Shown piece after piece: positions 19,730-36,148 of a DNA stretch of 55,869 nucleotides; position 1 is the stretch's first letter, and every line of letters starts with the position of its first letter. The stretch is from Deltaproteobacteria bacterium (GTDB lineage: Bacteria; Myxococcota; SpSt-1050; JACRCP01). The notes beneath the pieces are model-generated. The model did no database searches and was not told the origin of the DNA. It was given only the letters and a program-made list of their open reading frames with translations. Location: positions 1 to 55,869 of the forward strand of contig JACRCP010000287.1 in assembly GCA_016218965.1 (NCBI GenBank), written 5' to 3'. A program made the translations under genes and the position numbers.

Positions 19730-21487
19730 ATGTTCGCCGATTCTGCAAATCCCAAATCCCAAATCCCGAATCCCAAATTGTGCCTGCTTCTAACTGTCCA
19801 CTTCTTACTTCTCACCGTCCTGGGCGGTTGTTTTCCCGATCTTGGCGTTGACGACTTCAAGTACCGCTGCCAGTCGGCCGCCGACTGCGACACGGGAGCA
19901 TACGTGCCGTGGGACATCGGTGTGCCGGACTATGGCGTGGCCGGAGACACGGGCGCCGCGACAGACCGGGGACCGGAGGACCGGGGGACGAGGGACGAGG
20001 GGACGACGGACGAGGGGACAACGGACGACGGGACGACGGACGACGGGACGACGGACGACGCCGGGGCCGACTCGTCAGACCTGTCCGACGTGTCCGACAC
20101 GTCCGGCGGCGGCGATGATGCTCCAGACGCAGCGGACGCGGGCGGTGACATCGAAACGACCGACACCGGCGCGGATGCCGGTGATGACACGGGGGCCGCC
20201 GACTCCGGGGCCGACTCCGGGACTGACGCGGGCGCAGACGCCGGCTTCGACGCGGGGCAGTCGTGCCTCCCCTGCACCGGATGCTGTGACGGGGTCGCGT
20301 GCCGCGCGGGCGCGATGGACGTCCAGTGCGGCAAAAACGGCGCCGCGTGCGAGGACTGCACCGCGTCGGGCGGGGCGTGCCGCAACCAGGCGTGCGAAGT
20401 CCAGCCGCCGGTCTGCAACTCCACTTCGTGCCCGAACGGCTGTTGCAGCGGCACCACGTGCCAGAACGGCGACATCGACACCGTTTGCGGGACGGGCGGG
20501 ACGCTCTGCCAGAACTGCACTTCTTTCAGCCAGACCTGCATCAACAAGGGCTGCCACGGGGCGTGCGACGCGGTCACGTGCGGGAGCGGGTGCTGCGATG
20601 GAGACTCGTGCCTCCCGGGGAACACCGCGGACAAATGCGGGAAGGGCGGCGGCGCCTGCGGGACATGCGGGATTTTCAAGCCCCACTGCCTCAACCAGGC
20701 GTGCGGAATCTGCGGCCTCAACGCGTGTTTCCTCCAGGACAAGTGCTGCGACTCGTCCGGCGGCTGCCATGCGGGCGACACCGACACGCTGTGCGGCGAG
20801 AGCGGAGAGATGTGCGAGGACTGCGCGGCCATCGGGCAGAAATGCGTCTACCAAAACTGCCACGGCTGCGACCCCCTCACATGCCCCAACGGCTGTTGCG
20901 ACGGAAACGTCTGCAGGCCGGGGACCGACAACAACGCGTGCGGCACCAACGGCGCGGCGTGTGCAAACTGCACATCCGGGGCGAGCCCCGTGTGCAGCAA
21001 CCGTTCATGCGGTTTGTGCAACGCTACGACGTGCCCCGACGGCTGTTGTGACGGAAGCGGAACATGCCAGCCGGGCACCGCAAACACCGCCTGCGGAACT
21101 GCCGGCGCGCTCTGCCAGGATTGCGGTGGCGGCGCCTGCAACAACAAGAGTTGCGGGGCATGCAACGCGACGACCTGCGGAAGCGGCTGCTGCGACGCGC
21201 AAGGGAACTGCCGCCCGGGGACGCTAAACGACGTGTGCGGAAAGGGCGGCGGAGCGTGCGCCGACTGCAACACGACGGCGACCGCCCGGGCGTGCGTGAG
21301 CCAGCAGTGCGCGTGCAACAAGACGCACTGCAACCTTATGGACGACTACAACTGCTGCGACCCCGACGACAACACCTGCAAGGACGGAAATTCAAGCAAC
21401 TACTGCGGCAAGTCCGGCAACCAGTGTTCTGACTGCGGCTCGGGATACTGCTGCTCGCACGCATGCCAGTCGTCGGCGTGCAACTGA
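19730..21487 (+). CDS. Cassette 1: Cys-rich repeat lipoprotein (8 repeats)
   Basis: The product has 585 residues with a signal ending VLGGC, a lipobox. A short domain (DLGVDDFKYRCQSAADCDTG) follows, the shared head of all four cassette lipoproteins. Next comes a Thr/Asp/Gly linker encoded by 15-base repeats (19985-20060) and a DLSDVSDTS segment. Then come eight Cys-rich repeats of roughly 45-50 residues built on C...TCPxGCCDGxxCxxG (Cys pair in each) and CGxxGxxCxxC. The last unit is degenerate (NCCDPDDNTC). All Cys are likely disulphide-bonded outside the cell. The residues before the signal core (ANPKSQIPNPK) are encoded by a tandem repeat. The family resembles repeat proteins I recall from myxobacteria. 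Function unknown. Confidence 0.85.
   Translation: MFADSANPKSQIPNPKLCLLLTVHFLLLTVLGGCFPDLGVDDFKYRCQSAADCDTGAYVPWDIGVPDYGVAGDTGAATDRGPEDRGTRDEGTTDEGTTDDGTTDDGTTDDAGADSSDLSDVSDTSGGGDDAPDAADAGGDIETTDTGADAGDDTGAADSGADSGTDAGADAGFDAGQSCLPCTGCCDGVACRAGAMDVQCGKNGAACEDCTASGGACRNQACEVQPPVCNSTSCPNGCCSGTTCQNGDIDTVCGTGGTLCQNCTSFSQTCINKGCHGACDAVTCGSGCCDGDSCLPGNTADKCGKGGGACGTCGIFKPHCLNQACGICGLNACFLQDKCCDSSGGCHAGDTDTLCGESGEMCEDCAAIGQKCVYQNCHGCDPLTCPNGCCDGNVCRPGTDNNACGTNGAACANCTSGASPVCSNRSCGLCNATTCPDGCCDGSGTCQPGTANTACGTAGALCQDCGGGACNNKSCGACNATTCGSGCCDAQGNCRPGTLNDVCGKGGGACADCNTTATARACVSQQCACNKTHCNLMDDYNCCDPDDNTCKDGNSSNYCGKSGNQCSDCGSGYCCSHACQSSACN
19747..19779. repeat. AAATCCC heptamer tandem repeat inside a signal peptide
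   Basis: Four to five units of AAATCCC or GAATCCC encode NPKSQIPNPK, the basic n-region of the lipoprotein signal peptide. Related words occur at 23220-23251 at the same place in the cassette 2 lipoprotein gene. Confidence 0.75.
19985..20060 (+). repeat. 15-base coding repeat (GTTDD linker)
   Basis: About five units of GGGACGACGGACGAC or close variants encode the linker RGTRDE-GTTDE-GTTDD-GTTDD-GTTDD of the cassette 1 lipoprotein. The wording is close to the non-coding GGGACGA repeat at 27843-27885. Unit number could vary between strains by slippage. Confidence 0.75.
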
Positions 21488-21587
21488 CGTCCGACGCGCG
21501 CCGGCGGCGGCGCAAGGGAGAACGGATTTGCAAAAGACAAACGAAAGGGGGTTCGGCATGAAAACAAGGGTGCGTAGCGGTCTCATG

Positions 21588-22173
<586 letters not shown>

Positions 22174-22275
22174 ACTGGAACCCCCTTCTCCACGAGTGGC
22201 AATGTACGCTTCGGCGTGTCTCGTTGTCAAACGCCCCGCACGACGGTTCAGTGAATCGCCGCTGCGAACCGACGC

Positions 22276-22304
22276 TTTACTCCCGGCGCGGTTGACGGTA
22301 GTAT
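22276..22304 (+). promoter_or_regulatory. Possible promoter of cassette 2
   Basis: TTTACT (22276-22281), 17 bases and TAGTAT (22299-22304) lie 40 bases upstream of the TPR-like gene at 22345. GGGAGGG is present just before its ATG. This supports separate transcription of cassette 2 after the intervening minus-strand pair. Confidence 0.4.
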
Positions 22305-22344
22305 GTCGGCGTAGAAGTCTTCGGGCCGGCCGACGGGAGGGTGG

Positions 22345-23211
22345 ATGGCGCAGAGGCTCAATGCCGGTGCGATGGTTGTCGCGGTTGTCGCCGGCCTCTT
22401 CCCGGCCGCGGCGGGCGCGGGAACGTCCCTCCCGGACGGCCTCACCGCCGACGAGCTCATCAAGGACGCCGTCAACGCCTACGAGGCAATGGACTACGAC
22501 CGCGCCCTGCCGCTCCTTTCGGAAGCCGAGAGACTGCCGGGACTAAGCAAGATCGTCCGCATCACCATCCTCAAGTACCGCGCGTTCATCCTCATTCTCG
22601 AGGGAAAAGAAATCCTCGCGCGCGACGCCGTCACCGTGATCTACGACCTCAAGCCCGACTTCGAACTCCCGCAGACGGTGGCGCCCAAGTTCAGGATCTT
22701 CTTCGCCGGGGTCAGAGAAGACTACAAGCCCAAGACCAAACCGAAAAAAGCACAAACCGACCGCATCCTCACGGTTCAACCCGTGCCGCCGGCACCCGCT
22801 CCCCGGGTCCAGAGGACCTCGCCGCCGGCGCCCGAAGCGCCGAACTGGTTCGTCCGGTGGTGGCCCTCGTGGACCTGCCTGGCCGCCGGAACGGCGCTTG
22901 CCGTCCCAGGCGTCATCATCGGCCTCGATGTCAAGTCCGGGCAGGACGAGTTAAAGAACGCCCAAAGGGACGATGCGGGGCACATCATCGGAATGACGTA
23001 CGACGAGGCGAAGTCGCTCCAGAACGAGGCCGACAAGAAGGGCCTGACCTCCACCATCCTCCTCGGCGCCGGGGGCGCCGTTGTCGCCGCCGGCATCGCC
23101 CTGTTCTTCGTGTACGACGGCGCCGCGCCCGCCACCGGCCGTACGAGTGTTTCGGTGTCGCCGGGAACGGACGGCCGATCGCTGCTCCTGCATCTCGGCG
23201 GAGGATTCTGA
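22345..23211 (+). CDS. Cassette 2: exported TPR-like protein with two membrane helices
   Basis: The product has 288 residues and is a close paralogue of the product at 18784. Parts in order: signal peptide (cut near AGA), TPR-like domain (DELIKDAVNAYEAMDYDRAL then VIYDLKPDFELPQTVAPKF), linker, WFVRWWPSWTCLAAGTALAV helix, loop (QDELKNAQRDDAGHIIGMTY), second helix (TILLGAGGAVVAAGIALFFV), tail LGGGF. The stop overlaps the next ATG by one base (TGATG), so lipoprotein synthesis is coupled. The loop between the helices is as conserved as the helices, so it may bind a shared partner. Function unknown. Confidence 0.83.
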   Translation: MAQRLNAGAMVVAVVAGLFPAAAGAGTSLPDGLTADELIKDAVNAYEAMDYDRALPLLSEAERLPGLSKIVRITILKYRAFILILEGKEILARDAVTVIYDLKPDFELPQTVAPKFRIFFAGVREDYKPKTKPKKAQTDRILTVQPVPPAPAPRVQRTSPPAPEAPNWFVRWWPSWTCLAAGTALAVPGVIIGLDVKSGQDELKNAQRDDAGHIIGMTYDEAKSLQNEADKKGLTSTILLGAGGAVVAAGIALFFVYDGAAPATGRTSVSVSPGTDGRSLLLHLGGGF

Positions 23212-26200
23212 TGCAACCCCCGAATTCCGAATCCCGAACGCCGAATTCCGGTCTGTTGCTCGCTCTGATCCTCACTTCCCACCTTTCATTTCTCACTCTA
23301 CTCTCCGGCTGCGACACCGACCTCGGCCTCCAGGAATTCCAGTTCGGCTGCAAGACCGACTCGGACTGCGGAACGGGGTTTAAGTGCGAAGGGGCGAAGA
23401 AGTGCGTCCGGATCCCCGTGACCGAAGACACCGGAATCCCGGTCGACGCGGCACCGGAGGACCGGGGGACGGCGAAAGACGCGGGGACCACGCCCGACTC
23501 GGCGTCCGACGGGTCGGACCTGTCCGACGTGTCCGACGCGTCCGACGGCGGCGTTGATGCATCTGACGCGATGGACGCGGGCGAAGACACCGGGATCACC
23601 GACGCCGGCGAGGACGTTGGTGATGCGGGCGGTGACGCCGAGATCACCGACACCGGCGAAGACGTTGGTGACGCGGGTGGCGACGCCGCGACCCCGGACG
23701 CCGGCGAGGACACCGGGATCACCGACGCCGGCGAAGACGTCGGTGACGCAGGTGGCGACGCCGGCACCCCGGACACCGGCCAGGACGCCGGCGAGGACGC
23801 CGGACCCGACGGCGGCCTCCCCTGCGGGCCGTGCAGCGGCTGCTGCAACGGTGCGACGTGTGTTGCGGGCACGGACGACCTCATGTGCGGGAGCGGCGGG
23901 GCGGCATGCCAAGACTGCACGGCGGCGGGGATGGAGTGCGAAAACCAGGCGTGCCGGACGCCCCCGACCTGCGACTCCTCGACGTGCCCCAACGGTTGCT
24001 GCGACGCGATGGGTCAATGTCTGACCGGCGAACTCAACACCTCTTGCGGCACCGGCGGCGGCGCCTGCTCCGATTGCACGCTTGCCGGAAAGACGTGTGT
24101 CGGGAAGACCTGTCACGGTTGCGACTACCTTACATGCCCCAACGGGTGCTGCGACGCCGGCGGTGTGTGCCGGACCGGAGACCAGAACTCCGTCTGCGGT
24201 TCCGGCGGGTCGGCGTGCATCGACTGCACGACCGGCGGCGGCACGTGCCAGACCAAGTCATGCACGTACCCGACGTGCAATGCGGGGACGTGCCCCGGCG
24301 GCTGTTGCGACACGGGCGGCGCCTGCCAAGGCGGCGATCAGGACACGCTTTGCGGCACCGGCGGCGTTTCGTGTCAAGACTGCGCCGCGGGCGGAAGGAC
24401 GTGCGCCGGGAAGGCCTGCCACGGGTGCGACAGCGTCACGTGCCCCGCGGGTTGCTGCGACGCCACCGGTGTCTGCCACTCCGGCGACCAGAATACGCAA
24501 TGCGGGACCAACGGCGCGCTCTGCGCCAATTGCTCCGTGACCGGCTCGAGATACTGCGTCAACAGAACATGTACACCGTGCAACGCGACGACCTGCCCGA
24601 ACGGCTGTTGCGACGCGTCGGGGGTCTGCCAGACGGGCGACCAGAACTCGGCTTGCGGAACCGGCGGAGCGGCGTGCCAGGAATGTGCGGCGGGAAGTCA
24701 GACGTGCGTCGCAAAAGCCTGCCACGGTTGCGACGCCGTGACCTGCGCGGCGGGGTGCTGTTCGGCCGGCGGGACGTGCATGGGCGGGACGACCGACATC
24801 GCCTGCGGGACCAACGGCGCCGCGTGCACGGACTGCACCGGCACAACCAACAAGTACTGCGTCAACAAGACCTGCACGTCGTGCAATGCCGCGACCTGCC
24901 CGACGGGCTGCTGCGATGCGAACGGTGCGTGCCAGGTCGGCACCGGCGACGGCCAGTGCGGCGCCGGCGGGGCCGCGTGCGAAAACTGCACGTCTTCGGG
25001 GAAGTCGTGCATCGGGCAGGCCTGCCACGGATGCGACGCAACCACGTGCCCGGACGGGTGCTGCGACTTGAGCGGCGTCTGCCAGCCCGGCACCGCACAC
25101 GACAGTTGCGGCGACAACGGGGCCTCGTGCGCGAGCTGCTCGTCAACCGCCAACCGTTATTGCTACAATCGCGCCTGCGCGCCCTGCAACGCCCAGACCT
25201 GCCCCGACGGGTGCTGCGACGGCAACGGCGTCTGCCAGGCGGGCGACGTGGTCAGCCAGTGCGGCACCGGCGGTGTCGTCTGCTCCGACTGCGCGCTCAA
25301 CCCGCTCGACAAGTTCTGCTACAACAAGGTGTGCACCCCCTGCAACGCAAACACCTGCCCCAGCGGGTGCTGCGACGGAACCGTTTGCCGAACTGGCGAT
25401 CAGGACAACCAGTGCGGCAATTCGGGCGTTGCGTGCAGCGACTGCACCGCCACGGCGAACAAGTACTGCTACAACAAGACCTGCACCGCTTGCGGCGCGA
25501 GCACGTGCCCGTCGGGCTGCTGCTCTTCGGGCCTCTGCCAGGGCGGGACGCAGAACACCCAATGCGGCACGGGAGGGGCGGCGTGCTCCGACTGCACCGC
25601 CGGCGCAAACAAGTACTGCTACAACCAGGTGTGCACGGCGTGCAACGCCAGTACGTGCCCGTTGGGATGCTGCGCCAGCGGGCTGTGCGAGCCGGGAGAC
25701 CAGCAGACACAGTGCGGGACCGGCGGCGTCGCATGCGCGAACTGCACGTCTCAAGGCAAGACGTGTGCCGAGCAAGCCTGCCACGGATGCGACTCGGTCA
25801 CCTGCCCGAGCGGGTGCTGCTCGGGCGGGACCTGCTATCCCGGGACTGCCGAGGACAAGTGCGGGAAGAACGGCGCAAACTGCAGCGACTGCGGATCGCT
25901 CACCACCTGCAAGAACCAGTCCTGCCAGCTCTGTGCGTTCGTGTGCGGCTTTGGCAACAAGTGCTGCGACGGCACCGGCGGCTGCCACACGGGCGACACC
26001 AACGACTTCTGCGGCGAGGCCGGCGAGCGGTGTTCGGACTGCAACGCGGTGCCCGGCCAGAACTGCATAAACAGGATGTGCCACGGCTGCGACGTCCTCA
26101 CATGCCCGGACGGGTGCTGCGACACCAACACCTGCCGGGTCGGCACGGAACACACGGCGTGCGGCGCAAACTCGGCCGCCTGCGCCAACTGCACGGCGGG

Positions 26201-26855
26201 CGCGAACAAGGCATGCGCCAACCAGGGGTGCGCGGCCTGCAACCCGACCAACTGCCCCGACGGCTGCTGTGACGCGGGCGGCAACTGCCAGCCCGGCAAC
26301 ACCGACACGGTCTGCGGCAACGCCGGCGCGACATGCCAGAACTGTGCGGGATCGGGACAGACTTGCGTCAACAGGCACTGCACTCCGGCGTGCGACGCGA
26401 GCACCTGTCCAAACGGGTGCTGCGACGGGACCGGCGCCTGCCGGTCGGGCACGGAACACGCGGCCTGCGGGTCGGCCGGCCTGTTGTGCGCGGCCTGTGC
26501 GGGCGGCACACCCCACTGCGTCAACCGAGCCTGCGGGACGTGCAACGCGGCGAGCTGCCCGACCGGCTGCTGCAGCAACGGCTACTGCCGCCCCGGGACG
26601 CAAAACGCCTTCTGCGGCAACAACGGAATCGCGTGCGCCGACTGCGACCCGCCGGCCAACCAGCGCACCTGCGCCGGCAATCAGTGCATGTGCCACGAGG
26701 ACCTGTGTGACTGGTACGACTGGAGCAACTGCTGTGACCCCGCCGACCAGGTTTGCAAGGACGGGTATGACGACGGCCACTGCGGCGAGTACGGCGAGCA
26801 GTGCGACGACTGCGGCGGATGGACGTGCGACAGCTCGTCCAGAACCTGCCAGTAG
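23211..26855 (+). CDS. Cassette 2: giant Cys-rich repeat lipoprotein (20 repeats)
   Basis: The product has 1214 residues. The signal peptide ends LLSGC. The shared head domain is DLGLQEFQFGCKTDSDCGTGFKC. A DLSDVSDASD segment and a repeat-encoded acidic linker (23583-23780) follow. Then come 20 Cys-rich repeats with the pattern C-TCPxGCCD-xxC-xxG-xxxxxCGxxGxxCxxC. Many contain a CHGCD or YCYNKxCTxCN connector, so two repeat subtypes alternate irregularly. The last unit (NCCDPADQVC) is degenerate, like the end of the cassette 1 protein. This should be a long disulphide-rich stalk on the cell surface. The start at 23211 is fixed by the TGATG overlap with the TPR-like gene. Confidence 0.88.
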   Translation: MQPPNSESRTPNSGLLLALILTSHLSFLTLLSGCDTDLGLQEFQFGCKTDSDCGTGFKCEGAKKCVRIPVTEDTGIPVDAAPEDRGTAKDAGTTPDSASDGSDLSDVSDASDGGVDASDAMDAGEDTGITDAGEDVGDAGGDAEITDTGEDVGDAGGDAATPDAGEDTGITDAGEDVGDAGGDAGTPDTGQDAGEDAGPDGGLPCGPCSGCCNGATCVAGTDDLMCGSGGAACQDCTAAGMECENQACRTPPTCDSSTCPNGCCDAMGQCLTGELNTSCGTGGGACSDCTLAGKTCVGKTCHGCDYLTCPNGCCDAGGVCRTGDQNSVCGSGGSACIDCTTGGGTCQTKSCTYPTCNAGTCPGGCCDTGGACQGGDQDTLCGTGGVSCQDCAAGGRTCAGKACHGCDSVTCPAGCCDATGVCHSGDQNTQCGTNGALCANCSVTGSRYCVNRTCTPCNATTCPNGCCDASGVCQTGDQNSACGTGGAACQECAAGSQTCVAKACHGCDAVTCAAGCCSAGGTCMGGTTDIACGTNGAACTDCTGTTNKYCVNKTCTSCNAATCPTGCCDANGACQVGTGDGQCGAGGAACENCTSSGKSCIGQACHGCDATTCPDGCCDLSGVCQPGTAHDSCGDNGASCASCSSTANRYCYNRACAPCNAQTCPDGCCDGNGVCQAGDVVSQCGTGGVVCSDCALNPLDKFCYNKVCTPCNANTCPSGCCDGTVCRTGDQDNQCGNSGVACSDCTATANKYCYNKTCTACGASTCPSGCCSSGLCQGGTQNTQCGTGGAACSDCTAGANKYCYNQVCTACNASTCPLGCCASGLCEPGDQQTQCGTGGVACANCTSQGKTCAEQACHGCDSVTCPSGCCSGGTCYPGTAEDKCGKNGANCSDCGSLTTCKNQSCQLCAFVCGFGNKCCDGTGGCHTGDTNDFCGEAGERCSDCNAVPGQNCINRMCHGCDVLTCPDGCCDTNTCRVGTEHTACGANSAACANCTAGANKACANQGCAACNPTNCPDGCCDAGGNCQPGNTDTVCGNAGATCQNCAGSGQTCVNRHCTPACDASTCPNGCCDGTGACRSGTEHAACGSAGLLCAACAGGTPHCVNRACGTCNAASCPTGCCSNGYCRPGTQNAFCGNNGIACADCDPPANQRTCAGNQCMCHEDLCDWYDWSNCCDPADQVCKDGYDDGHCGEYGEQCDDCGGWTCDSSSRTCQ
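23220..23251. repeat. CCGAATT/CCGAATCC tandem repeat in a signal peptide
   Basis: Four degenerate units encode PNSESRTPNSG at residues 4-14 of the cassette 2 lipoprotein, just before the hydrophobic core. This is the same position as the AAATCCC repeat in the cassette 1 lipoprotein gene. Confidence 0.65.
23583..23780 (+). repeat. 27/48-base nested coding repeats in the linker
   Basis: Units run 27, 48, 48, 27 and 48 bases. The 48-base unit encodes EDVGDAGGDAEITDTG and variants; the 27-base unit encodes EDTGITDAG. All units end GA(C/T)(G/A)CCGGC or similar and begin GA(A/G)GAC. The array gives an acidic flexible spacer between the membrane-proximal head and the Cys-rich stalk. Confidence 0.85.
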
Positions 26856-26916
26856 GCCCCGCACGAAACCGGGCTTCCCCGACCAAACCCGGGTCCATGC
26901 GCCGCGCGCCGGAAAG

Positions 26917-26945
26917 TGGCAAAATTTTAGGAAAATCGGTACAAT
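26917..26945 (+). promoter_or_regulatory. Possible promoter of cassette 3
   Basis: TACAAT (26940-26945) lies 17 bases after TGGCAA (26917-26922), in a short AT-rich patch of otherwise GC-rich DNA. It is 36 bases upstream of the ATG at 26982. The -35 match is weak. Confidence 0.35.
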
Positions 26946-26981
26946 ACGCATCAGCGGCCGATTTGACGTGCGGAGTGCCCG

Positions 26982-27842
26982 ATGACGAATAAGACGAGTC
27001 TTGCTGCGGTCGTGGTTCTGTTTGCGGCCGCGGGGCACGCGGACGCGGCGGAAAAGCCCTCGGGTCCGCCGACGAAAGAACTGATTTCGCAGGGCGTCGC
27101 CGCCTACGATTCGATGGACCTTGACAAGGCCTTCCCGCTGTTCGAGCAGGCATCCAGACATTCCGATTTGACCAGGGCCGACCGAATCAATGTGTTCAAG
27201 CACCAGGCGTTCATCCTCATGCTCCAGGGAAAGGAGATCCTGGCGCGCGACAAGGTCACCGCCATCTACACGATGGACCCGGCGTTCGAGCTTCCGGCCA
27301 CCGTGTCGCCCAAGTTCCGGAGGTTTTTCGCCGACGTCAAAAGGGACATGGCGCCCCCGCCGACGGCACAGCCGGCCCCTCCTTCGCAGCCGCCGCACCG
27401 GACGATCGAGGTACGGCCCGCCGCGAAGCCGCCGCCCGCCGTGCAGAAGACGGCTCCCGCCCCGCCGGACGGCCAGCCGAACCTCTTTGTGCGTTTCTGG
27501 CCGTCGTGGACGTGTTTTGCCACGGGCCTTGCCCTGGTTGTGCCCGGAATAGTGGTCGGCCTTGACGTCAAGTCGGGACGGGACGAGCTCGAGAACGCGC
27601 CCAGGGACGAGACCGGCAGGTTCACAACGCTCACGCTCGAAGACGCAAAGGCGCTCCAGAACGCGGCCGACCAGAAGGGTGTCACCTCGACCATCCTCCT
27701 AAGCGTGGGTGCGGCGGCGTTGGTCACGGGCGGCGTGATGTTCTTCGTCTACGACGGCGCCAAGGAGGTCACCAAGAGAACCACGGTGTCGTTCGGTTCC
27801 GACGGGACGACGCACGCCGTGACCGCGGCGTGGAAATTCTGA
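26982..27842 (+). CDS. Cassette 3: exported TPR-like protein with two membrane helices
   Basis: This 286-residue paralogue has a signal peptide (MTNKTSLAAVVVLFAAAGHA, cut near ADA). The TPR-like domain is KELISQGVAAYDSMDLDKAF then AIYTMDPAFELPATVSPKF. A Pro-rich linker follows, then LFVRFWPSWTCFATGLALVV, a conserved loop and ILLSVGAAALVTGGVMFFVY. It is followed after 39 bases by a lipoprotein gene, and then by a fibre gene. This places it in the same role as the paralogues at 18784, 22345 and 33227. Confidence 0.83.
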   Translation: MTNKTSLAAVVVLFAAAGHADAAEKPSGPPTKELISQGVAAYDSMDLDKAFPLFEQASRHSDLTRADRINVFKHQAFILMLQGKEILARDKVTAIYTMDPAFELPATVSPKFRRFFADVKRDMAPPPTAQPAPPSQPPHRTIEVRPAAKPPPAVQKTAPAPPDGQPNLFVRFWPSWTCFATGLALVVPGIVVGLDVKSGRDELENAPRDETGRFTTLTLEDAKALQNAADQKGVTSTILLSVGAAALVTGGVMFFVYDGAKEVTKRTTVSFGSDGTTHAVTAAWKF

Positions 27843-27885
27843 AGGGACGAGGGACGAGCGAAGAAGGATGAAGGACGAGGGATGA
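27843..27885. repeat. GGGACGA heptamer tandem repeat
   Basis: Six or so degenerate 7-base units (GGGACGA, GGATGAA, GGACGAG) fill the gap between the cassette 3 TPR-like gene and its lipoprotein gene. They end at the ATG, so the binding sequence AAGGA is part of the repeat. Confidence 0.7.
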
Positions 27886-28475
27886 AAAGACACGAACAAA
27901 ACGCGGGCGGCGCGTGGAATCTGATTGCCGAGTGCCGGTCTGGGTGCCACGGACAACCGCAGGTTGCCCGTGTCCGAAGGCCGGGCATCCCGCACGGACA
28001 AGCGCTGCTTGTCCGTGGCACCCGGAAACACCGGGGCTTCCTGTTCGCACTGGCCACTGTCCACTGTGCGCTGTTCACTCTGCTTGCCTGCGACACCGAC
28101 CTTGCGATCTCCGATTTCAAGTACGCGTGCGAGTCGGACAACGAGTGCGGCGCGGGGCACAAATGCGAGCCCGGGGTTGGGTGCGTGAAGTTTCCGGAGT
28201 CCAAGGATGCCGGGCGGGGCGACGCGGGAGGCGGGCGGGACGCAGGGGCCGCGGACGGCGGCACCGACGCGGGGACCGACGCAGGGGCAGACGCGGGGAC
28301 AGCCGACGGGGGTTTCATGCTCCGGTATTCGAGCACGAGCGATTCGGCGGCGGGCGCCGGCACGTCCGACAAGTACATGCTCAAGTCGGTCACCGGTTGG
28401 TCCACGGGCCCGAAATGGAACGTCGGAAACTACGAGTTGAAGATGGGCAGTCCGTTTGAACAGGGGAAAAAGTGA
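27882..28475 (+). CDS. Cassette 3: short lipoprotein preceding the fibre
   Basis: The product has 197 residues. The first 45 residues are encoded by a palindromic repeat (27942-28023) and precede the signal core LFALATVHCALFTLLAC, so the true start may lie further in; no better start codon is seen. The mature head DLAISDFKYACESDNECGAG followed by HKCEPGVGC matches the other cassette lipoproteins. An Asp/Gly/Ala linker follows (DAGTDAGADAGTADGG). The C-terminal domain is about 50 residues (TSDKYMLKSVTGWSTGPKW), with a counterpart in the product at 34139 (YVLRSTTGW). It may anchor or chaperone the fibre encoded next. That is inference. Confidence 0.75.
   Translation: MKRHEQNAGGAWNLIAECRSGCHGQPQVARVRRPGIPHGQALLVRGTRKHRGFLFALATVHCALFTLLACDTDLAISDFKYACESDNECGAGHKCEPGVGCVKFPESKDAGRGDAGGGRDAGAADGGTDAGTDAGADAGTADGGFMLRYSSTSDSAAGAGTSDKYMLKSVTGWSTGPKWNVGNYELKMGSPFEQGKK
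27942..28023. repeat. GGGTGCCACGGACAA double-hairpin repeat, copy 1
   Basis: The outer arms GGGTGCCACGGACAA (27942-27956) and TTGTCCGTGGCACCC (28009-28023) are perfect 15-base inverted repeats. Between them are two short hairpins, each of CACGGACAA and TTGTCCGTG (one mismatch in the first) around loops CCGCAGG and GCGCTGC. Other copies: 34166-34202 (single hairpin), 37431-37520 and 43138-43218. Confidence 0.88.
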
Positions 28476-28640
28476 CTCACGACAAACGACTCACGACTCA
28501 TGACTCACGGCACGCGCAACCCGACTTCCCGGTCCGGTGGTCGTTCCCCTGCCTGCTGTCGTGGGTCGTTCGTCGTCGGTCGATGTTCTTGGGTCGTTTG
28601 TCGGATCGGTCGTTTGTCGAAAGTCGTAAGTCGTCGGTCG
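28471..28640. repeat. Inverted pair of CGACTCA/TGGGTCGT tandem repeats
   Basis: 28471-28515 has units of the type GACTCAC/GACAAAC. 28557-28640 has the reverse complement type (GTCGTTCGTCG, GGGTCGTTTGTCGG, AAGTCGTAAGTCG). Together they make a long imperfect inverted repeat around a 40-base centre. It fills the gap between the cassette 3 lipoprotein and fibre genes. No gene is seen here. Confidence 0.7.
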
Positions 28641-28660
28641 TATCGCCCGGAGGGATCGTC

Positions 28661-31600
28661 ATGAACAAAGTTATCAGCATCGCCATCGCGTCCGCGTTCG
28701 CTATCGCCGCAGGCGCCGCCGCCCGCGCGGAGGTGCCGCTTACGCTGTCGCACAACGGGTATCTCACGGACACGCAGGGCGCGCCGGTGAACGTCACCCT
28801 GCCCTTCGTCTTCAAGGTGTACGCCGAGGAGACGGGAGGCGACCCCGTATGGGTCGAAGCGATACCCAACGTCGGGGTTCAAAACGGTTTTTACGCGACG
28901 ACACTGGGTCTTTCGACGTCGCTCGCGAGCGTGTTCAACGCGCGGAAGGACGTGTGGCTCGAGATCTCGGTTGACGGGATCGCGATCACTCCGCGGCAGA
29001 AGATAAGCGCGGTGCCATACGCGCTGGTGGCGGACGACGCGGTCGGGGCCATTCACCCTACATCCATCACGGTTGGCGGGAAGAAAGTGGTTGACGAGGA
29101 AGGCAAGTGGTCGGGGGACCCTTCGGGGATACCCGGGGTCAAGAGCGTCGGGACGGCGGCGCCTTTGACGGGTGGGCCGATCACGGACACGGGGACGATC
29201 GGGATGGCAAAGGCTGACGGGACGGCGGACGGGTACCTTTCGGCGGCCGATTTCGCGGCTTTTTGGACCAAGCAGAACCGTGTGAGCGGGAAGTGCAACG
29301 ACGGTTTTTGCGTCTATCAGGTCAACGAGGACGGTTCGGTGGACTGCTTCCCCTGCGGGGGCGGTGCGGGGTCCGGGACGGTGACGTCCGTGGCGACTGG
29401 GCCCGGGCTGACGGGCGGGCCGGTGACGACGTCGGGGACCATCAGCCTCGACTCGGCCTGGCTGGACGGGTCTGCGCACGACGCGCGTTTTGTGAACGAG
29501 GGCCAGGCCGACGCCGTGACCTCGGCGATGATCCTGGACGGGACGATAGTGTTTGGCGACATCGGGCAGAACGCCTGCGTCGCGGGCCAGGTAATCAAGT
29601 GGGACGGGACGGCGTGGACTTGCGCGGCGGATCTGAACACCGTGTTGACCGTTGCGGCCGGCTCCGGGCTGGAGATGGCCGGGTCGAGCCTGTCGCTGCT
29701 GAAGACGTGCTCATCGGGGAACGTGCTCAAGTGGGACGGAACGAAGTGGGACTGCGCGGCGGATGTAAGCTCGGGGGGGACGGTGACGAGCATCGGCACG
29801 GGGGCCGGGCTGACCGGCGGGCCGATCACGGGGACGGGGACGATCAGCATTGCGACGGACAGTGTCACGACGGCGATGATCAAGAATGCGACCATCAAGT
29901 TCGAGGATTTCGACCCCAACGGCTGTGTCGCCGGGCAGATCCCCAAGTTCGACGGCGTGAACTGGATCTGCGGCAACGACGCCGGCGGCGCCGCCGGATA
30001 CGTGACCGACGTGTCGGCAACTGCGCCCGTCGCGAGCACCGGCGGCACGATGCCGGTCATCAGCATCGCAAAGGCGACGACAGCCGTGAGCGGCTACCTC
30101 TCCGCCGTCGACTGGAACCTCTTCAACAACAAGCAGGACCAGGTTGCCGGGGCGTGCCTGGCCGGGAGTTCGATTAGGGCGGTCAACCCGGACGGCTCGG
30201 TTCTTTGCGAAACGGACGACAACACGACGTACACGGCGGCGGCTGGATCGGGGATCGAAGTCGCCGGCACCGCCCTGTCTCTCCTCAAGACCTGCGTCTC
30301 CGGAAACGTCCTCAAGTACGACGGCACCAACTGGATTTGCTCGCCCGACCTGAACTCCGGCGGGACGGTGACAGCGGTGACGGCCTCGGCGCCTTTGTCG
30401 AGCATCGGTGGGGCCACGCCGAACATCGCGATGCCGGCGGCTTCGTCGTCCGCGGACGGCTACCTGACATCGGCGAACTGGACGGCGTTCGATGCGAAGC
30501 AGAACCGGGTCGCCGGGACGTGCGCCGCAGGGAGCGCCATCCGCGCCATCGACGTGAACGGGGCGGTGACGTGCGAGACGGACGACGGCCAGTCGTACAC
30601 CGCCTCAAGCGGCGTGATGCTGGTGGGCACGGACCTTCAGTTGAGCACGGTGGGATGCGCGTTTGGGGAGGTATGGAAGTACACGGCGGGCGGCTGGAGC
30701 TGCGAGCCGGACATTGACTCGGGCGGCGACGTAACGGGGGTCACGGCGGGCACGGGTCTCACGGGAGGCGGCGGCGCCGGGGACGTGACTTTGAACGTCT
30801 CGTTTGGGGGTACGGGGGCGGCGACTTCGGCGGCGCGAAGCGACCACAACCACACCGGGACGTACGAGCCGGAGATCGCCGCCGGGACGAACGCGCAGTA
30901 CTGGCGGGGGGACAAGACGTGGCAGGCGCTCAACACCACCGCGGTCACCGAGAGCGGCAACCTCTATTATACCGACGCAAGGGCGCGTGGCGCCCTGTCG
31001 GGAACCTTGCCCGTCACGTACAACTCCGGCACGGGCGCGATCGGAGTGTCGGCTAACTCGTCGTCCTCGGCGGGCGTGGTGGCGACCAGCGCGGGGCAGG
31101 CGAACATGGTTTGGAAGACCGACGGGAGTGGCAACCCCGCGTGGAGGTCGGACGCGGACTCCGGCGGCGACATCACGGCGGTCAACGTCACGGCGCCCAT
31201 CACGGGCGGCGGGGCGAGCGGGTCCGTGACGGTCGGCATCAGCCAGGCCGGCGCCGCCGCAGACGGCTACCTGTCGAGCGCGAACTGGAACACTTTCAGC
31301 GACAAGCAGAACAGGGTTACGGGCACCTGCGCGGCCGGCAGCTCGATCCGCGTCGTCAACGCCGACGGCACGGTCACGTGCGAGACCGACGACGGGCAGC
31401 TCTACACGGCCTCCGGCGGTGTTACTCTTTCAGGAAGCGACTTCCGCCTTGATACCACCGGGTGCCTGGCCTTCGAGGTCCTCAAGAGGAACGCCGCCAA
31501 CAACGCCTGGGAATGCGTCGCCGACGCCGACAGCGGCACCGTCACAAACGTGGCCACGGGGACCGGATTGACCGGAGGCCCCATCACGACCACGGGGACC

Positions 31601-33046
31601 ATCAGCCTGGCGGACACCGCCGTGACCCCCGGCAGTTACACACTCTCAAGCATCACCGTCGATGCCCAGGGGAGAATCACCGCGGCGTCCAGCGGGGCTG
31701 AGGTCGACGGCGTCATCGGCAACGAGGTGACCAACGCGACCAACGCGACGCTGACCAGGGGCGGCACAGGGACGGCGGGGGACCCTTATACTCTCGGCCT
31801 GAACCTGGGCAACGCGAACACATGGACGGGGCTTCAGACATTGTCGCGGGCCAGCGGCAGCCCGCCGATTGCGGTGGCGACGGCATATGCGGCGGGGGCG
31901 ACGGTCACGGATTTGAGCGCCGACATGGTTGACGGCAACCACGCGAGCGACTTTGCCGGCGCGTCCCACAACCACGACGCGACGTACGTCAACGAGGCGC
32001 AGGCCGACTCCATAACCTCCACGATGGTGGCCTTTGACTACGCCGGCTCGTCGAGCGAAGGCGGCAGCGCCACGAGCTGCGTCAATATTGATCCAGGGAC
32101 GTACGACTGGCACACCGACGGCACAAGGACTGTCAACGTCGATTACGCCTCGACGGCCGGGAGCGCGACTTCCGCGACTTCGGCGACAACCGCCACCAAC
32201 CTGGCAGGTGGAGGTGCCGGTACAATCCCCTATCAGAGTGCCGCCAACACAACCGCGATGCTCGCCGCGGGAACATCAGGTTACCTGCTACAGAGCGGCG
32301 GCGCAGGGGCGCCATCGTGGATCAACGCGACGAACGCGAGCACCGCAAGCACCGTGGTGAAGCGCGACGGCTCGGGCAACTTTTCCGCCGGGACGATCAC
32401 GGCGGCCCTTACAGGAAACGTGACGGGCAACGCATCGACGGCTACCACCCTTGCCGCCGATCCGGGCAACTGTTCCGCCGGGAACGCCCCCCTTGGCATC
32501 ACCGCCGCGGGAGTCGCAGAAGGCTGCTTTGACGTGGCGACACAGTCCGAACTCGACACCCACGCCGCCCTGACCTCCGCCCACGGCGCGACGAGCTCTA
32601 ACACCGCGTCAACGATCGTCATGCGCGACGCCTCGGGGAACTTCTCCGCAGGAAAAGTCACGGCAACGGCCCTCGGCGGCAGTGCTACGTCAGCCTACAA
32701 TGAAAGTGAGGCGGTGTCCACGACGACAAGCACGACCTATCAAACCAAAGTGACTTTGAATCTCCCGGTCGCCGGCACATATATTCTTTTCGCCTCGGCT
32801 GTTTTCGCCAACAACGCATATGTATACAACCCTCTGCGTTTCTACGACACGTCGACAAGTACTCTGATAAGCGGCGGCGACAACTACCAGAGTAGCAGCG
32901 CCGCGGGCGGCTGGGGGACCTACACCGTGATGCGGAGCTACACTACGTCCGGAAGTCAAAACGTCAATATTCAGTATCGTGCCTATGACGGAACAGACAC
33001 GGCTTCAATTAAATTCGCGCGCATTTTTGCACTGAGGATCAACTGA
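28661..33046 (+). CDS. Cassette 3: large exported fibre-like protein (phage tail-fibre modules)
   Basis: The product has 1461 residues with a signal peptide MNKVISIAIASAFAIAAGAA (cut near ARA). The N-terminal domain runs from LTLSHNGYLTDTQGAPVNV to ITPRQKISAVPYALVADDA. A long shaft follows of modules such as GTVTSVATGPGLTGGPVTT, ADGYLSAADFAAFWTKQNRV, NLYYTDARARGALSG and VVKRDGSGNFSAGTITAALT. These are familiar from phage tail fibres. Residues from about 1347 form a globular tip ending KFARIFALRIN. DNA for the tip is about 50 percent GC by my hand count of 32701-32880, far below the shaft DNA. GGAGGG precedes the ATG at 28661. Probably a trimeric surface adhesin. Host phage genes are absent. 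Confidence 0.85.
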   Translation: MNKVISIAIASAFAIAAGAAARAEVPLTLSHNGYLTDTQGAPVNVTLPFVFKVYAEETGGDPVWVEAIPNVGVQNGFYATTLGLSTSLASVFNARKDVWLEISVDGIAITPRQKISAVPYALVADDAVGAIHPTSITVGGKKVVDEEGKWSGDPSGIPGVKSVGTAAPLTGGPITDTGTIGMAKADGTADGYLSAADFAAFWTKQNRVSGKCNDGFCVYQVNEDGSVDCFPCGGGAGSGTVTSVATGPGLTGGPVTTSGTISLDSAWLDGSAHDARFVNEGQADAVTSAMILDGTIVFGDIGQNACVAGQVIKWDGTAWTCAADLNTVLTVAAGSGLEMAGSSLSLLKTCSSGNVLKWDGTKWDCAADVSSGGTVTSIGTGAGLTGGPITGTGTISIATDSVTTAMIKNATIKFEDFDPNGCVAGQIPKFDGVNWICGNDAGGAAGYVTDVSATAPVASTGGTMPVISIAKATTAVSGYLSAVDWNLFNNKQDQVAGACLAGSSIRAVNPDGSVLCETDDNTTYTAAAGSGIEVAGTALSLLKTCVSGNVLKYDGTNWICSPDLNSGGTVTAVTASAPLSSIGGATPNIAMPAASSSADGYLTSANWTAFDAKQNRVAGTCAAGSAIRAIDVNGAVTCETDDGQSYTASSGVMLVGTDLQLSTVGCAFGEVWKYTAGGWSCEPDIDSGGDVTGVTAGTGLTGGGGAGDVTLNVSFGGTGAATSAARSDHNHTGTYEPEIAAGTNAQYWRGDKTWQALNTTAVTESGNLYYTDARARGALSGTLPVTYNSGTGAIGVSANSSSSAGVVATSAGQANMVWKTDGSGNPAWRSDADSGGDITAVNVTAPITGGGASGSVTVGISQAGAAADGYLSSANWNTFSDKQNRVTGTCAAGSSIRVVNADGTVTCETDDGQLYTASGGVTLSGSDFRLDTTGCLAFEVLKRNAANNAWECVADADSGTVTNVATGTGLTGGPITTTGTISLADTAVTPGSYTLSSITVDAQGRITAASSGAEVDGVIGNEVTNATNATLTRGGTGTAGDPYTLGLNLGNANTWTGLQTLSRASGSPPIAVATAYAAGATVTDLSADMVDGNHASDFAGASHNHDATYVNEAQADSITSTMVAFDYAGSSSEGGSATSCVNIDPGTYDWHTDGTRTVNVDYASTAGSATSATSATTATNLAGGGAGTIPYQSAANTTAMLAAGTSGYLLQSGGAGAPSWINATNASTASTVVKRDGSGNFSAGTITAALTGNVTGNASTATTLAADPGNCSAGNAPLGITAAGVAEGCFDVATQSELDTHAALTSAHGATSSNTASTIVMRDASGNFSAGKVTATALGGSATSAYNESEAVSTTTSTTYQTKVTLNLPVAGTYILFASAVFANNAYVYNPLRFYDTSTSTLISGGDNYQSSSAAGGWGTYTVMRSYTTSGSQNVNIQYRAYDGTDTASIKFARIFALRIN

Positions 33047-33104
33047 GTATCGATTGCCGAGTGTCTGTATTTTTCTTTTACTGAGGGTTTTATGCAGGGA
33101 GATG

Positions 33105-33224
33105 CTAGGGCGGCGCCTGGCCGGCTCAAAGACGTTTGCAATCCAGCAGAAGGTACAGGCTGGCGGCTCCGGGACGTGCTACACCCGGTTCGCCCGCATC
33201 TTCGCTCTCAGAGTGGGGCCTTGA
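33105..33224 (+). pseudogene. Displaced C-terminal tip remnant of a fibre gene
   Basis: The frame ending in TGA at 33222-33224 reads GSKTFAIQQKVQAGGSGTCY then TRFARIFALRVGP. It aligns along its length with the last 30 residues of the active fibre tip (GSQNVNIQYRAYDG then IKFARIFALRIN). It is in another frame from the fibre gene, has no start or binding site, and is GC-rich like the rest of the region. It looks like the former 3' end of the fibre gene, pushed out when the present low-GC tip was acquired. The upstream limit is approximate. Confidence 0.7.
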
Positions 33225-33226
33225 CG

Positions 33227-34138
33227 ATGGGAACACGCTTGCGCTCGCACCACGGTCGGATACTGGCAGGAGGTTTCCTGCTTCTGCCGTTGACTCCGGC
33301 GTTGGTTCACGCTCAAGACGACGTCTTGGCCCCGGCACCCGAATCAACTCCCGCCCCCGACAACCCCTCTGCCCCGTCCTCCGAAGAGACGGCGGACTCG
33401 CTCCGGAACGCCGAGCGGGCGTATGACGAGATGAACTACGAGAAGGCCCTGTCAATCTTGTCGGACGTCGAGAAGAAGACCGATCTCAAGACATGGGAGG
33501 TCATCACCGTTTTCAAGCTCAAGGCGTTCATCCACATCAACAACGAAAACGACATCTTCGCCCGCGACGCGATACTCTCGATCTACAATCTCGATCCGAA
33601 GTTCAAGCTCCCCGAAAATCTCCCGCCCAAAATCCTCAAGGTGTTCGCCGAGGTCAAAAAAGACTTCAAACCCAAAAAGAAAAAGAAGCCCAAAACGTTT
33701 GGCGCGGCGCCGGCGACGGCGCCCTCCCCTGCCCCGCCGGCCGAGGTTTCCAAACCGGCCACGCCAGTTTCCGACGCGAACCTTTTTGTCCGGTTCTGGC
33801 CGTCTTGGGCGTGCCTCGTCGCAGGCGTCGGCCTCTTCGTCCCGGGGGCCATCGTCGGCGCCGGCGCCACGGCCGACCGCGAGAAGTTCGAGGACGCTCC
33901 CCGCGACGCCGCGGGCCGGATTATCGGAATAACGCGTGCGCAGGCCGAAAAGATGCAGGAAGATGCGAACACCAAGGCCTTGACCGGAAACCTCCTGATC
34001 GGCGCCGGCGCAGCGGCAGCAACAGCCGGTGTTGTGCTATTGTTCTTTTACGACGACGGTTTCCACCCGTGGGCGGTTCCGGTTTTGTCGACGGCCGACG
34101 GACGAGGCTTCGTCGCCGGCTTCGGCGGGGAGTTTTGA
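33227..34138 (+). CDS. Cassette 4: exported TPR-like protein with two membrane helices
   Basis: The product has 303 residues and is the most diverged of the four paralogues. A signal peptide (ILAGGFLLLPLTPALVHAQD) precedes the TPR-like domain (DSLRNAERAYDEMNYEKALS then SIYNLDPKFKLPENLPPKI). A Lys-rich linker (KPKKKKKPK) follows, then LFVRFWPSWACLVAGVGLFV, the loop and LLIGAGAAAATAGVVLLFFY. I start at the ATG at 33227; codons further upstream in frame belong to the tip remnant region. The next gene starts at a GTG directly after the stop codon. Confidence 0.82.
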   Translation: MGTRLRSHHGRILAGGFLLLPLTPALVHAQDDVLAPAPESTPAPDNPSAPSSEETADSLRNAERAYDEMNYEKALSILSDVEKKTDLKTWEVITVFKLKAFIHINNENDIFARDAILSIYNLDPKFKLPENLPPKILKVFAEVKKDFKPKKKKKPKTFGAAPATAPSPAPPAEVSKPATPVSDANLFVRFWPSWACLVAGVGLFVPGAIVGAGATADREKFEDAPRDAAGRIIGITRAQAEKMQEDANTKALTGNLLIGAGAAAATAGVVLLFFYDDGFHPWAVPVLSTADGRGFVAGFGGEF

Positions 34139-34666
34139 GTGCCGGTGACCTGCATTTCGCCGGATGGGTGCCACGGACAACCCCGGTTTGTCCGTGCCAC
34201 CCGGCGTTTCTTTTTCCTGATCACCGTACATCTGGCGATGTTGACGTTCTTTGCGGGATGTTCCGGCGGCCTCGGCCTCGGCGACTTCACGTTCGCCTGC
34301 GAAAAAGACTCGGAGTGCGGCAAGGGACAGAGGTGCGACCCGTCCGCCGGGTGCGTCGCAATTGGAAAACCCGACGGGGGACCAACGGATCGAGGGACAA
34401 CGGACGACAGCTTCCATCCGACGGACTCGTCGGACATGCCTGACCTGTCGGACGTGTCGGACGGAGCTGATGGTGACGCTTCGGACGCGGGCGGTGAAGA
34501 CGCCGGCGTCGCCGACGGCGGCGGGCTCGTCCTCGACTGGGCGGGCGTGTATCACGGCGCGTCCGGCACGTGTTCTTCGGCGGACTACGTTTTGCGTTCG
34601 ACGACGGGTTGGATGGTCCTGCCGGCGGGCGAATCGCCGTCGCACACGATTCGCCCGGCCGAGTAG
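34139..34666 (+). CDS. Cassette 4: short lipoprotein preceding the fibre
   Basis: The product has 175 residues from a GTG directly after the previous stop. Residues 10-22 are encoded by a single-hairpin palindromic repeat (34166-34202). The signal core FFFLITVHLAMLTFFAGC ends in a lipobox. The head LGLGDFTFACEKDSECGKGQ then RCDPSAGC matches the other cassette lipoproteins. The linker contains RGTTDD and DMPDLSDVSD words. The C-terminal part (SADYVLRSTTGWMVLPAGES) resembles that of the product at 27882. It is paired with the short fibre gene at 34781. Confidence 0.78.
   Translation: MPVTCISPDGCHGQPRFVRATRRFFFLITVHLAMLTFFAGCSGGLGLGDFTFACEKDSECGKGQRCDPSAGCVAIGKPDGGPTDRGTTDDSFHPTDSSDMPDLSDVSDGADGDASDAGGEDAGVADGGGLVLDWAGVYHGASGTCSSADYVLRSTTGWMVLPAGESPSHTIRPAE
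34166..34202. repeat. GGGTGCCACGGACAA repeat, copy 2 (single hairpin)
   Basis: GGGTGCCACGGACAA (34166-34180) and TTGTCCGTGCCACC (34188-34201, one mismatch) flank CCCCGGT. The short form has one hairpin where the other copies have two. It lies in frame near the start of a lipoprotein gene, as copy 1 does. Confidence 0.82.
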
Positions 34667-34670
34667 TTGC

Positions 34671-34750
34671 GTCTTGGAGCGTCCTGGAGTGTCTTGGAGT
34701 GCGGCGGCTTGACGCCGCCTTGAATTCGCGCCGGCTTGACGGCGCGCGGA
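34671..34750 (+). repeat. TTGGAGTGCG double-hairpin repeat, copy 4, with duplicated leader
   Basis: Three tandem decamers (GTCTTGGAGC, GTCCTGGAGT, GTCTTGGAGT) lead into GCGGCGGCTTGACGCCGCC and a second hairpin GCGCCGGCTTGACGGCGCGC. The same bases, apart from the duplicated leader, follow the kinase gene at 18695-18749. It lies between the cassette 4 lipoprotein and fibre genes. Confidence 0.82.
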
Positions 34751-34780
34751 ACGACGGAACGGAAAACGGAGGCTCGCGAC

Positions 34781-36148
34781 ATGAAAAACGTCTTCGCGCT
34801 TGTTGGGTTGTTCCTGGCCCTCGCGATGTTCCCTTCCCCCGCCCCCGCCGCCGTTCCCCAGACCCTCGTCCACACGGGGCACCTGTCGGACGCGCAGGGA
34901 AAACCGGTCGACGCGACGCTGGCGTTCGGCTTCACGCTCTTCACGTCCGAGTCGGGCGACGAGTCCGTGTGGACCGAGGAGCACGCGGACGTCGTCGTGA
35001 AGAACGGCGCGTACACAGTCACACTCGGCCAATTCAACGCCGTGACCCCCGAGCTGTTCTTCAAATACGGCAACCTCTGGCTCGAGATCTCGGTCGGCGC
35101 CCAGAAACTTCTGCCCCGCCAGAAGGTCAGCTCGGTCCCGTTCGCCCTTGTCTCGCACGACGCCATCGGCGCCATCCACCCCGCGTCCGTCACCGTCAAC
35201 GGGAAAACCGTGATCGACACCGAGGGAAAGTGGACCGGCGACCCCGCGGGGATGGCCGGCGTCCAGCAGATTGACACGACCGCGCCGCTTTACGGGGGGC
35301 CAATCACCAATACGGGCGCCATCGGCATCACAAAGGCGGCGGCCGACGCCGACGGCTACCTTTCGAAAGAGGACTGGACGGCATTCGGCGCCAAGCAGAC
35401 GCGCATCACCGGGCTGTGCCCGAACGGCCAGTGCGCGGTCGCGGTCAACTCGGACGGCACGCTCGTTTGCGAACCATGCGCCGGCGGCGTGTCAAAGGTC
35501 GACACGGGAAGCGGCCTCACGGGCGGGCCGATCACGGGCGAAGGCACAATCAGTCTCGACAAGACGCTCACCGACATCTGGTACGTAAACACCGAAGGCG
35601 ACGTGATGTCCGGCGGCCTCAAGATCACGCCCGCCGGCGGGTTCTCGGTCGGCACCGACCAGCTCGTCTGTCTCGACACCGGCAACGTCGGCATAGGAAC
35701 CGCGACGCCCGCCGCCAAGCTCCACGTCGCCGGCGACGCGACAATCGGCGGAGATCTCACCATCACGGGCGGAGGACTGAAGGGGTTTGTTCAATACGCC
35801 GAGGATGACACCGAGACGCAAAGCCAGACCACCACCTGGGTTACCAAGATCTCCCTCACGCTCGAACAGGGCACGTACCTGGTCAACGCGTTGGGCGATT
35901 TCAGGCACAGCTCAGACCCCGCCGGAGGCACCGAGGTGCGCATCTACAACACGACCGACACCGCCGTGATGTACGGACCCGTCTCGCTAAACGTAGCCGA
36001 CACGACGACCTACCAGTCGCTCAACTGGCTCAAACAGCTCACGCTCACAAAACAGACCACGGTCGCCCTCCAGTTCCGCTCAACCACCGGCGCCCTCTAC
36101 CGCGCCTACATGAAAATGGCCCGCCTCAAGGCCGAAAGAGTGGACTGA
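34781..36148 (+). CDS. Cassette 4: shorter exported fibre-like protein
   Basis: The product has 455 residues with a signal peptide MKNVFALVGLFLALAMFPSP (cut near PAA). The N-terminal domain (QTLVHTGHLSDAQGKPVDA to LLPRQKVSSVPFALVSHDA) matches that of the large fibre residue for residue in many places. The shaft is short, with modules TTAPLYGGPITNTGAIGIT, ADGYLSKEDWTAFGAKQTRI and GSGLTGGPITGEGTISL. The C-terminal globular tip (about 345-455) has a beta pattern TQSQTTTWVTKISLTLEQGT and ends AYMKMARLKAERVD. GGAGG lies 10 bases before the ATG. The stop codon abuts the convergent thiolase stop. Confidence 0.83.
   Translation: MKNVFALVGLFLALAMFPSPAPAAVPQTLVHTGHLSDAQGKPVDATLAFGFTLFTSESGDESVWTEEHADVVVKNGAYTVTLGQFNAVTPELFFKYGNLWLEISVGAQKLLPRQKVSSVPFALVSHDAIGAIHPASVTVNGKTVIDTEGKWTGDPAGMAGVQQIDTTAPLYGGPITNTGAIGITKAAADADGYLSKEDWTAFGAKQTRITGLCPNGQCAVAVNSDGTLVCEPCAGGVSKVDTGSGLTGGPITGEGTISLDKTLTDIWYVNTEGDVMSGGLKITPAGGFSVGTDQLVCLDTGNVGIGTATPAAKLHVAGDATIGGDLTITGGGLKGFVQYAEDDTETQSQTTTWVTKISLTLEQGTYLVNALGDFRHSSDPAGGTEVRIYNTTDTAVMYGPVSLNVADTTTYQSLNWLKQLTLTKQTTVALQFRSTTGALYRAYMKMARLKAERVD

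Follow-up and report, generated by a model that had tools for sequence, protein, structure and literature searches.

A fibre gene of Deltaproteobacteria bacterium (GTDB phylum Myxococcota; assembly GCA_016218965.1, contig JACRCP010000287.1) carries a low-GC C-terminal tip and is followed, in a different reading frame, by a stub homologous to the end of that tip. We analyzed the whole 55,869-bp stretch around this gene (hereafter the window) and consider it probable that an older, homologous tip gave way for the most part to a foreign C-terminal cassette. The ancestral fibre gene, in which stub and shaft would once have been joined, would have reached to 33224, with two bases separating it from the next gene. 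Incoming foreign DNA of about 412 bp (32696-33107) would have supplied a new tip, a stop codon and a short spacer, and perhaps also a phage-type distal shaft from about 32228; most of the old tip would have been replaced and its last 35 codons left out of frame beside the following gene. If read rightly, the locus directly records a way in which fibres may switch their binding targets.

The fibre (fibre 1; 1461 aa, 28661..33046, forward strand, called as an open reading frame with its translation) consists of a signal peptide, recognized by eye, a conserved N-terminal domain, a repeat shaft (GC 0.67, third-position GC (GC3) 0.85) and the C-terminal tip. The N-terminal domain (28700..29110, forward strand; 137 residues including the end of the signal peptide, delimited in a 36-sequence alignment) is homologous to that of paralogues and relatives. 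Its AlphaFold2 model is beta-rich (mean pLDDT 83); Foldseek returned no match to it in the PDB at E 0.001, and a Pfam scan of fibre 1 gave no family at E 1.

A stub homologous to the fibre tip

The stub (33117..33224, forward strand; delimited by alignment and profile search) comprises 35 codons in a frame differing from that of fibre 1, has a GC content of 0.64-0.66 and a GC3 of 0.77, ends LAGSKTFAIQQKVQAGGSGTCYTRFARIFALRVGP-stop at 33224, and aligns to the last two strands of the present tip. An earlier note on this DNA had described a GC-rich, other-frame segment at 33105-33224 aligning to the tip C-terminus, which we confirmed (78/120 G+C), placing the start of the stub at 33117. The stub scored 57 against the present tip, a value that none of 5000 shuffles reached (mean 20.9, sd 3.8, maximum 41). 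The two complete tips of the window scored 77 against each other (0/5000 shuffles), and the stub scored 38 against the tip of the paralogue fibre 2, which 9/5000 shuffles reached. When 1128 window peptides were ranked by their scores against the tip, the stub took third place after the two fibres; a longer unrelated frame scored 51.

Similarity of the remnant to fibre C-termini was also recovered by profile search: with a profile of the two tips alone, the stub ranked third among 9809 peptides (E 0.0013; next E 4.9). We further compared 710 peptides lying 3' of 38 fibre-family ORFs with the 38 C-termini of these ORFs, which are complete in the sense of stop-to-stop frames, a few looking mis-framed (e.g. 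L069 and one of L134). The stub was the best C-terminus-to-C-terminus match (E 1.2e-4; next unrelated 0.008), and the remaining strong matches comprised an adjacent fibre ORF (L134), sequence of repeat-shaft or glycine-rich character, and a single frame behind a fibre on contig C178 that is discussed below. A profile built from an alignment containing the stub finds the stub again, a circular result that was not counted; its weak match in genome G023 had an E of 0.004. Weak stub matches in the phylum set (G104, G056) and on contig C321 were dismissed as chance, the frames there lacking a fibre-like end. A chance resemblance of an intergenic frame at the fibre 1 locus itself would agree with a plain six-frame search of the whole genome, in which stub and tip matched at E 0.13 only, but it is close to excluded by the shuffles, by the profile rank and by the joint alignment of C-terminus and stop codon. 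The evidence supports the stub as a real fibre-type C-terminus.

The two sequences are related but distinct. Old and new tips are homologues sharing 44% identity over 32 residues and hence not unrelated cassettes. In the motif FARIFALR, common to stub and tip, 6/8 codons differ, all at synonymous third positions; the stub is therefore not a recent copy of the tip, and the differences fit two coding sequences long separated. A tandem duplication of fibre 1's own tip with decay of the second copy would account for two adjacent sequences of one fold family, but the modest identity, the synonymous differences and the GC3 of the two sequences (0.77 for the stub, 0.63 for the tip) disfavour it, and we regard it as improbable.

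The stop codon of the stub ends at 33224 and the ATG of the next gene (33227..34138, forward strand; a 303-aa protein with a signal peptide seen by eye and no Pfam family above the cut-off) follows 2 bp on, the stop codon of the present fibre lying 180 bp away. On contig C116, where a clear homologue of the gene at 33227 follows the fibre (33%, E 7e-28), there is a 4-bp overlap between the fibre stop and the earliest possible ATG, and a gap of 2 bp separates that stop from a second in-frame ATG. The next gene is 35 bp away behind the C206 fibre and overlaps the C177 fibre by 4 bp; these two next genes are homologous to each other and not detectably to the gene at 33227, so C116 is the only strict spacing control. 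From the 2-bp gap and the C116 spacing it follows that the stub occupies the place expected for the end of a fibre gene. The spacer also contains an ATG at 33092, four bases 3' of GAGGG and in frame with the gene at 33227; a start there would lengthen that gene's product at its N-terminus by reading the stub DNA in yet another frame.

Composition, fold and origin of the present tip

The present tip (32696..33043, forward strand; delimited by GC and GC3, segmentation and a structural model) is encoded by the last 116 codons of fibre 1 and has a GC content of 0.52 and a GC3 of 0.63. That it is poorer in GC than the shaft (0.67) had been noted before from a hand count over 32701-32880, which we reproduced to within one base (92/180 G+C against 91). 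A GC3 this low occurred in none of 3795 other 116-codon windows (minimum 0.71) drawn from ten CDS segments of the cluster, fibre 1 being represented only to 32140 and hence without tip and distal shaft; when all of fibre 1 was included (4096 windows), the five lowest-GC3 windows listed all overlapped the tip. The homologous fibre 2 tip has a GC3 of 0.85, so low GC is not inherent to the fold. When tip and shaft were compared across the fibre family (38 rows, of which L069 was dropped for want of a shaft), fibre 1 had the second-lowest tip-minus-shaft GC3 of 37 rows (-0.23), behind L116 (-0.28); values of -0.13 or less were found in 8 rows and of +0.12 or more in 3. The L116 locus (G020:C2:80000-99000), from another genome, holds three tandem fibre genes, in each of which tip GC3 lies below that of the shaft (-0.14, -0.28 and -0.16).

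A two-level GC segmentation of 31500-33420, blind to genes, delimited an odd segment at 32696-33107 (GC 0.50 against 0.67; support 32594-32953 for the left edge and 33078-33169 for the right). It corresponds to the tip plus the low-GC spacer 3' of the present stop codon (33047..33104, forward strand, 41% GC; delimited by GC and segmentation) and is the lowest 410-bp stretch of the window. Of the contig's 225 windows, none shows a stronger GC dip than the one at the tip, and 1/221 windows at eight other loci of the genome does. The next dip in the contig (33421-33702) lies within a lysine-rich coding stretch, so a GC dip alone is no proof of foreign DNA, and GC3 serves better as a measure. On its right, the odd segment consists partly of non-coding spacer, and non-coding spacers are often AT-rich anyway. 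Short imperfect repeats occur, and at the junctions none exceeds chance: the one that spans the segment (16 nt, 81%, at 32230 and 33205) was matched in 6/20 shuffles. A transposase gene would not fit into the 180 bp that separate fibre 1 from the next gene.

An AlphaFold2 model of the tip, built from three window sequences, is a beta sandwich (mean pLDDT 86.5). Among solved structures, searched also with Foldseek, it comes closest to PLTL of Photorhabdus (9ib6; Z 13.6, rmsd 2.0 over 116 residues) and the N-terminal lectin domain of BC2L-C of Burkholderia (6zzw; Z 13.1, rmsd 2.1 over 116 residues); the TNF-like tip of Bd2734, a mosaic adhesive trimer (MAT) protein of Bdellovibrio, has a Z of 10.4 (8okw). 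The predicted fold is thus a TNF/C1q-like jelly roll, with TNF-like lectins of bacteria as its nearest neighbours; PLTL and BC2L-C share this fold but only 14-15% sequence identity, and glycans are probably the ligands of the fibre 1 tip. Against a viral structure library the model gave 302 matches at E ≤ 0.001, with phage and giant-virus proteins among the 50 listed. By sequence, the tip had no match in the 194 other genomes of the phylum set at E 0.01, none in phages when searched alone, none in plasmids (with a longer query) or viral contigs and, as an alignment, none in genome contigs, and its best PDB match had an E of 0.86; no donor was found in any of these genome, phage, plasmid, viral-contig and genome-contig collections, which counts against the replacement reading. 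By composition, the tip looks foreign in origin.

The main rival to tip replacement holds that another fibre gene once ended in the stub, that the intervening module was deleted save for the last 35 codons of that fibre, and that tip and spacer are fibre 1's own. Its plausibility comes from the tandem arrangement of gene copies in this cluster (18763-36148). The gene at 33227 is one of four tandem copies in the window (18763, 22345, 26982 and 33227), of which those at 26982 and 33227 are followed by a putative lipoprotein and a fibre, and those at 18763 and 22345 by cysteine-rich proteins without a fibre, as if modules come and go. Behind the copy at 33227, these are a putative lipoprotein recognized by eye (34139..34666, forward strand, an open reading frame) and fibre 2 (34781..36148, forward strand), whose tip (about 35798-36145) is distantly homologous to both the present tip and the stub. 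Contig C206 likewise has two successive fibres with two genes between them, and the spacing to 33227 would fit a deletion equally well. However, a deletion would need a separate acquisition event for the low-GC tip and makes no prediction of an odd segment that starts at the border of shaft and tip and ends where the stub begins. We therefore judge the deletion unlikely, if well short of negligible, and retain tip replacement as the preferred reading. Two further features of the cluster are a protein kinase with a PEGA domain upstream of the tandem copies and a 1185-aa cysteine-rich repeat protein without a Pfam family (23298-26852).

Assembly offers another way to place two fibre ends side by side, since two strain variants of the 3' end could have been joined in a metagenome. 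The assembly comprises 418 contigs, whose ends cut off several fibre genes, but the reading frame of the fibre is unbroken up to the junction and the following gene is intact beyond it, and we give such an artefact only a slim chance. One fibre gene that meets a contig end before its tip is the paralogue L069 (G000:C312), with 57% over N-domain residues and a similar-looking shaft.

A phage-type distal shaft

The incoming DNA may have extended further upstream than the tip. In a tblastn search with 32021-33043 as query, 279 phage records matched, 273 of them named Synechococcus, Cyanophage or Prochlorococcus; the 30 listed of the 279 all fell within query residues 70-213, ending by 32659. They delimit a distal shaft of phage tail-fibre type with two GNFSAG repeats (32228..32659, forward strand). 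Tail fibres of cyanophages (S-CBS4 and others) resemble it, the identity reaching 53.8% for 42% query coverage; they differ in having no match to the fibre 1 tip, and the scanned genes flanking fibre 1 are cellular. Two viral contigs (L141/L142) encode fibres with a related distal shaft and a different end, without such a tip. By sequence, the phage and viral matches cover the distal shaft and not the tip. At E 1e-5 the distal shaft matched nothing else in its own genome and nothing in 194 others, its GNFSAG repeats occur in 1/46 family rows, and its GC3 of 0.78 falls in the lowest 3% of windows. Because of the phage matches, the lack of other genome matches, the rare repeats and the low GC3, the distal shaft may be imported, either as part of the incoming DNA or in an earlier import, and the donor may have been a phage or phage-like.

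Fibre 1 as the tail fibre of a prophage was considered and rejected: no phage structural genes occurred among the neighbours scanned, a subset of the window's genes. Pfam assigned cellular families to eight of ten window proteins and none to two, and among eight neighbours a kinase was the only one with a PHROGs match. Fibre 2 matched a PHROG tail-fibre family (E 3e-5), and fibre 1 a PHROG of unknown function (E 0.004).

A mosaic fibre family and a second stub

Relatives of the N-terminal region were found in 18/58 genomes, its own counted, and 45 frames with the N-domain were collected; the nearest genomes of the set belong to another family of the same order, and a scan of the region against genome contigs gave no match. 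With L069 and frames open at contig ends left out, the 11 N-domains of this genome are homologous in 55/55 pairs and the 10 C-termini in 7/45, six of these pairs being among S74-type ends and one being the tips of fibres 1 and 2. Pfam identified S74 in 4 of 8 paralogue pieces, Collar (a phage tail collar domain) in 1, Gly_rich_2 in 1 and no family in 2. S74 and non-S74 C-termini hence coexist in the genome, together with the TNF-like tip modelled for fibre 1 and its fibre 2 homologue by sequence, which supports a family that is mosaic at its C-termini. One S74 fibre, ending at 12155 of L066, has 2768 aa and a hydrophobic C-terminal stretch and is followed by a gene that looks protein-kinase-like by eye.

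This architecture recalls the MAT superfamily. According to the available part of its description (PMC10769870), the signal peptide of the 21 MATs of Bdellovibrio bacteriovorus is followed by a beta-rich domain of ~130 aa. These proteins form an S74 and a non-S74 group, some of their tips are TNF-like (among them those of Bd2439 and Bd2734), and tips have been swapped in evolution (Bd1334 and Bd2133). The fibre 1 family shares with them, as far as that account extends, the ~130-aa N-domain, mixed C-termini and exchangeable tips, TNF-like ones among them; it differs in belonging to another bacterium, in the arrangement of its genes in tandem modules and in the older C-terminus stubs still present. 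Fibre 1 thus resembles a MAT adhesin by architecture and fold, its family is here called MAT-like, and its N-terminal domain is probably located at the cell surface. A regular expression written from the printed MAT capping-loop motif matched 8/15 rows of the genome including fibre 2 and was absent in fibre 1; in the portion of the source consulted, this motif is not stated as a requirement for MATs (PMC10769870).

A second locus in the same genome shows a comparable arrangement. The fibre on contig C178 (L068; stop at 4954), whose own end has no Pfam family, is followed on the same strand by an IS200-like transposase gene (L068 (G000:C178) 4290-4775; Y1_Tnp, E 6e-7). Directly 3' of it, also on the fibre strand, is a 54-residue anchor-type fibre end (4125-4289), recognized by its 69% identity (E 1.8e-9) to the membrane-anchor end of the S74-type C177 fibre, its only other match in the genome. 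The score of 120 was reached in 0/5000 shuffles (maximum 63). This frame had been missed by the C-terminus-to-C-terminus filter, as the C177 protein continues for some 20 residues more; its classification as an interspersed repeat was rejected, and on checking it proved to be a stub of a different C-terminal type from that behind fibre 1. Fibre-end stubs were thus present at 2/38 loci, both in this genome, and the second raises the odds of tip replacement a little. A similar transposase gene lies behind an S74 fibre on contig C113.

Old C-termini left downstream are known from other systems. In the part of the contact-dependent inhibition (CDI) literature drawn on here, a new C-terminal module displaces the older one downstream and leaves it as a 'fossil', and transposase genes are reported near orphan modules (PMC4927057). 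Orphan cdiA-CT/cdiI and Rhs modules, as represented there, resemble the fibre 1 locus in the old C-terminus left downstream, and their nearby transposases recall the gene behind the C178 fibre; they differ from fibre 1, where no toxin or immunity gene was seen and 35 residues remain, not a whole module (PMC4927057). The stub as a displaced CDI/Rhs toxin module was rejected, as it is a 35-residue homologue of an adhesin tip and the next gene is one of four window paralogues. The earlier note had proposed that a new cassette was inserted before the old tip. It is supported in part, in that the stub is real, the tip foreign-looking, the C-termini mosaic and a second stub present; a simple insertion does not, because only ~35 of roughly 115 old-tip residues remain, and the old tip would have been mostly replaced. 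Selection for receptor change, which the note took to be implied, is only a possibility.

We tentatively propose, as possible rather than probable, that MAT-type adhesins renew their tips with C-terminal cassettes (distal shaft, tip and stop codon) from tailed phages, sometimes aided by IS200-type transposases, and that the incoming cassette takes the place of the old tip up to a point shortly before its end, leaving a readable stub. MAT tip swapping has, in the account available, so far been deduced by comparing present-day proteins (PMC10769870), and a limited literature search found no paper on the stub of a replaced fibre tip. At the fibre 1 locus, a new tip and the last part of its predecessor appear to be preserved together, with visible compositional borders of the incoming DNA, and the C178 locus has a similar stub. 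If the proposal is true, the exchanged unit comprises tip, stop codon, spacer and perhaps a phage-type distal shaft; replaced tips could be sought as a fibre C-terminus stub 3' of a fibre with another end, and such searches could count and date tip turnover across bacteria.

The window also contains seven copies of TGCCACGGACAA on either strand (27945, 28009, 34169, 37434, 37506, 43141 and 43204), an interspersed repeat of which six copies are paired ~63-72 bp apart.
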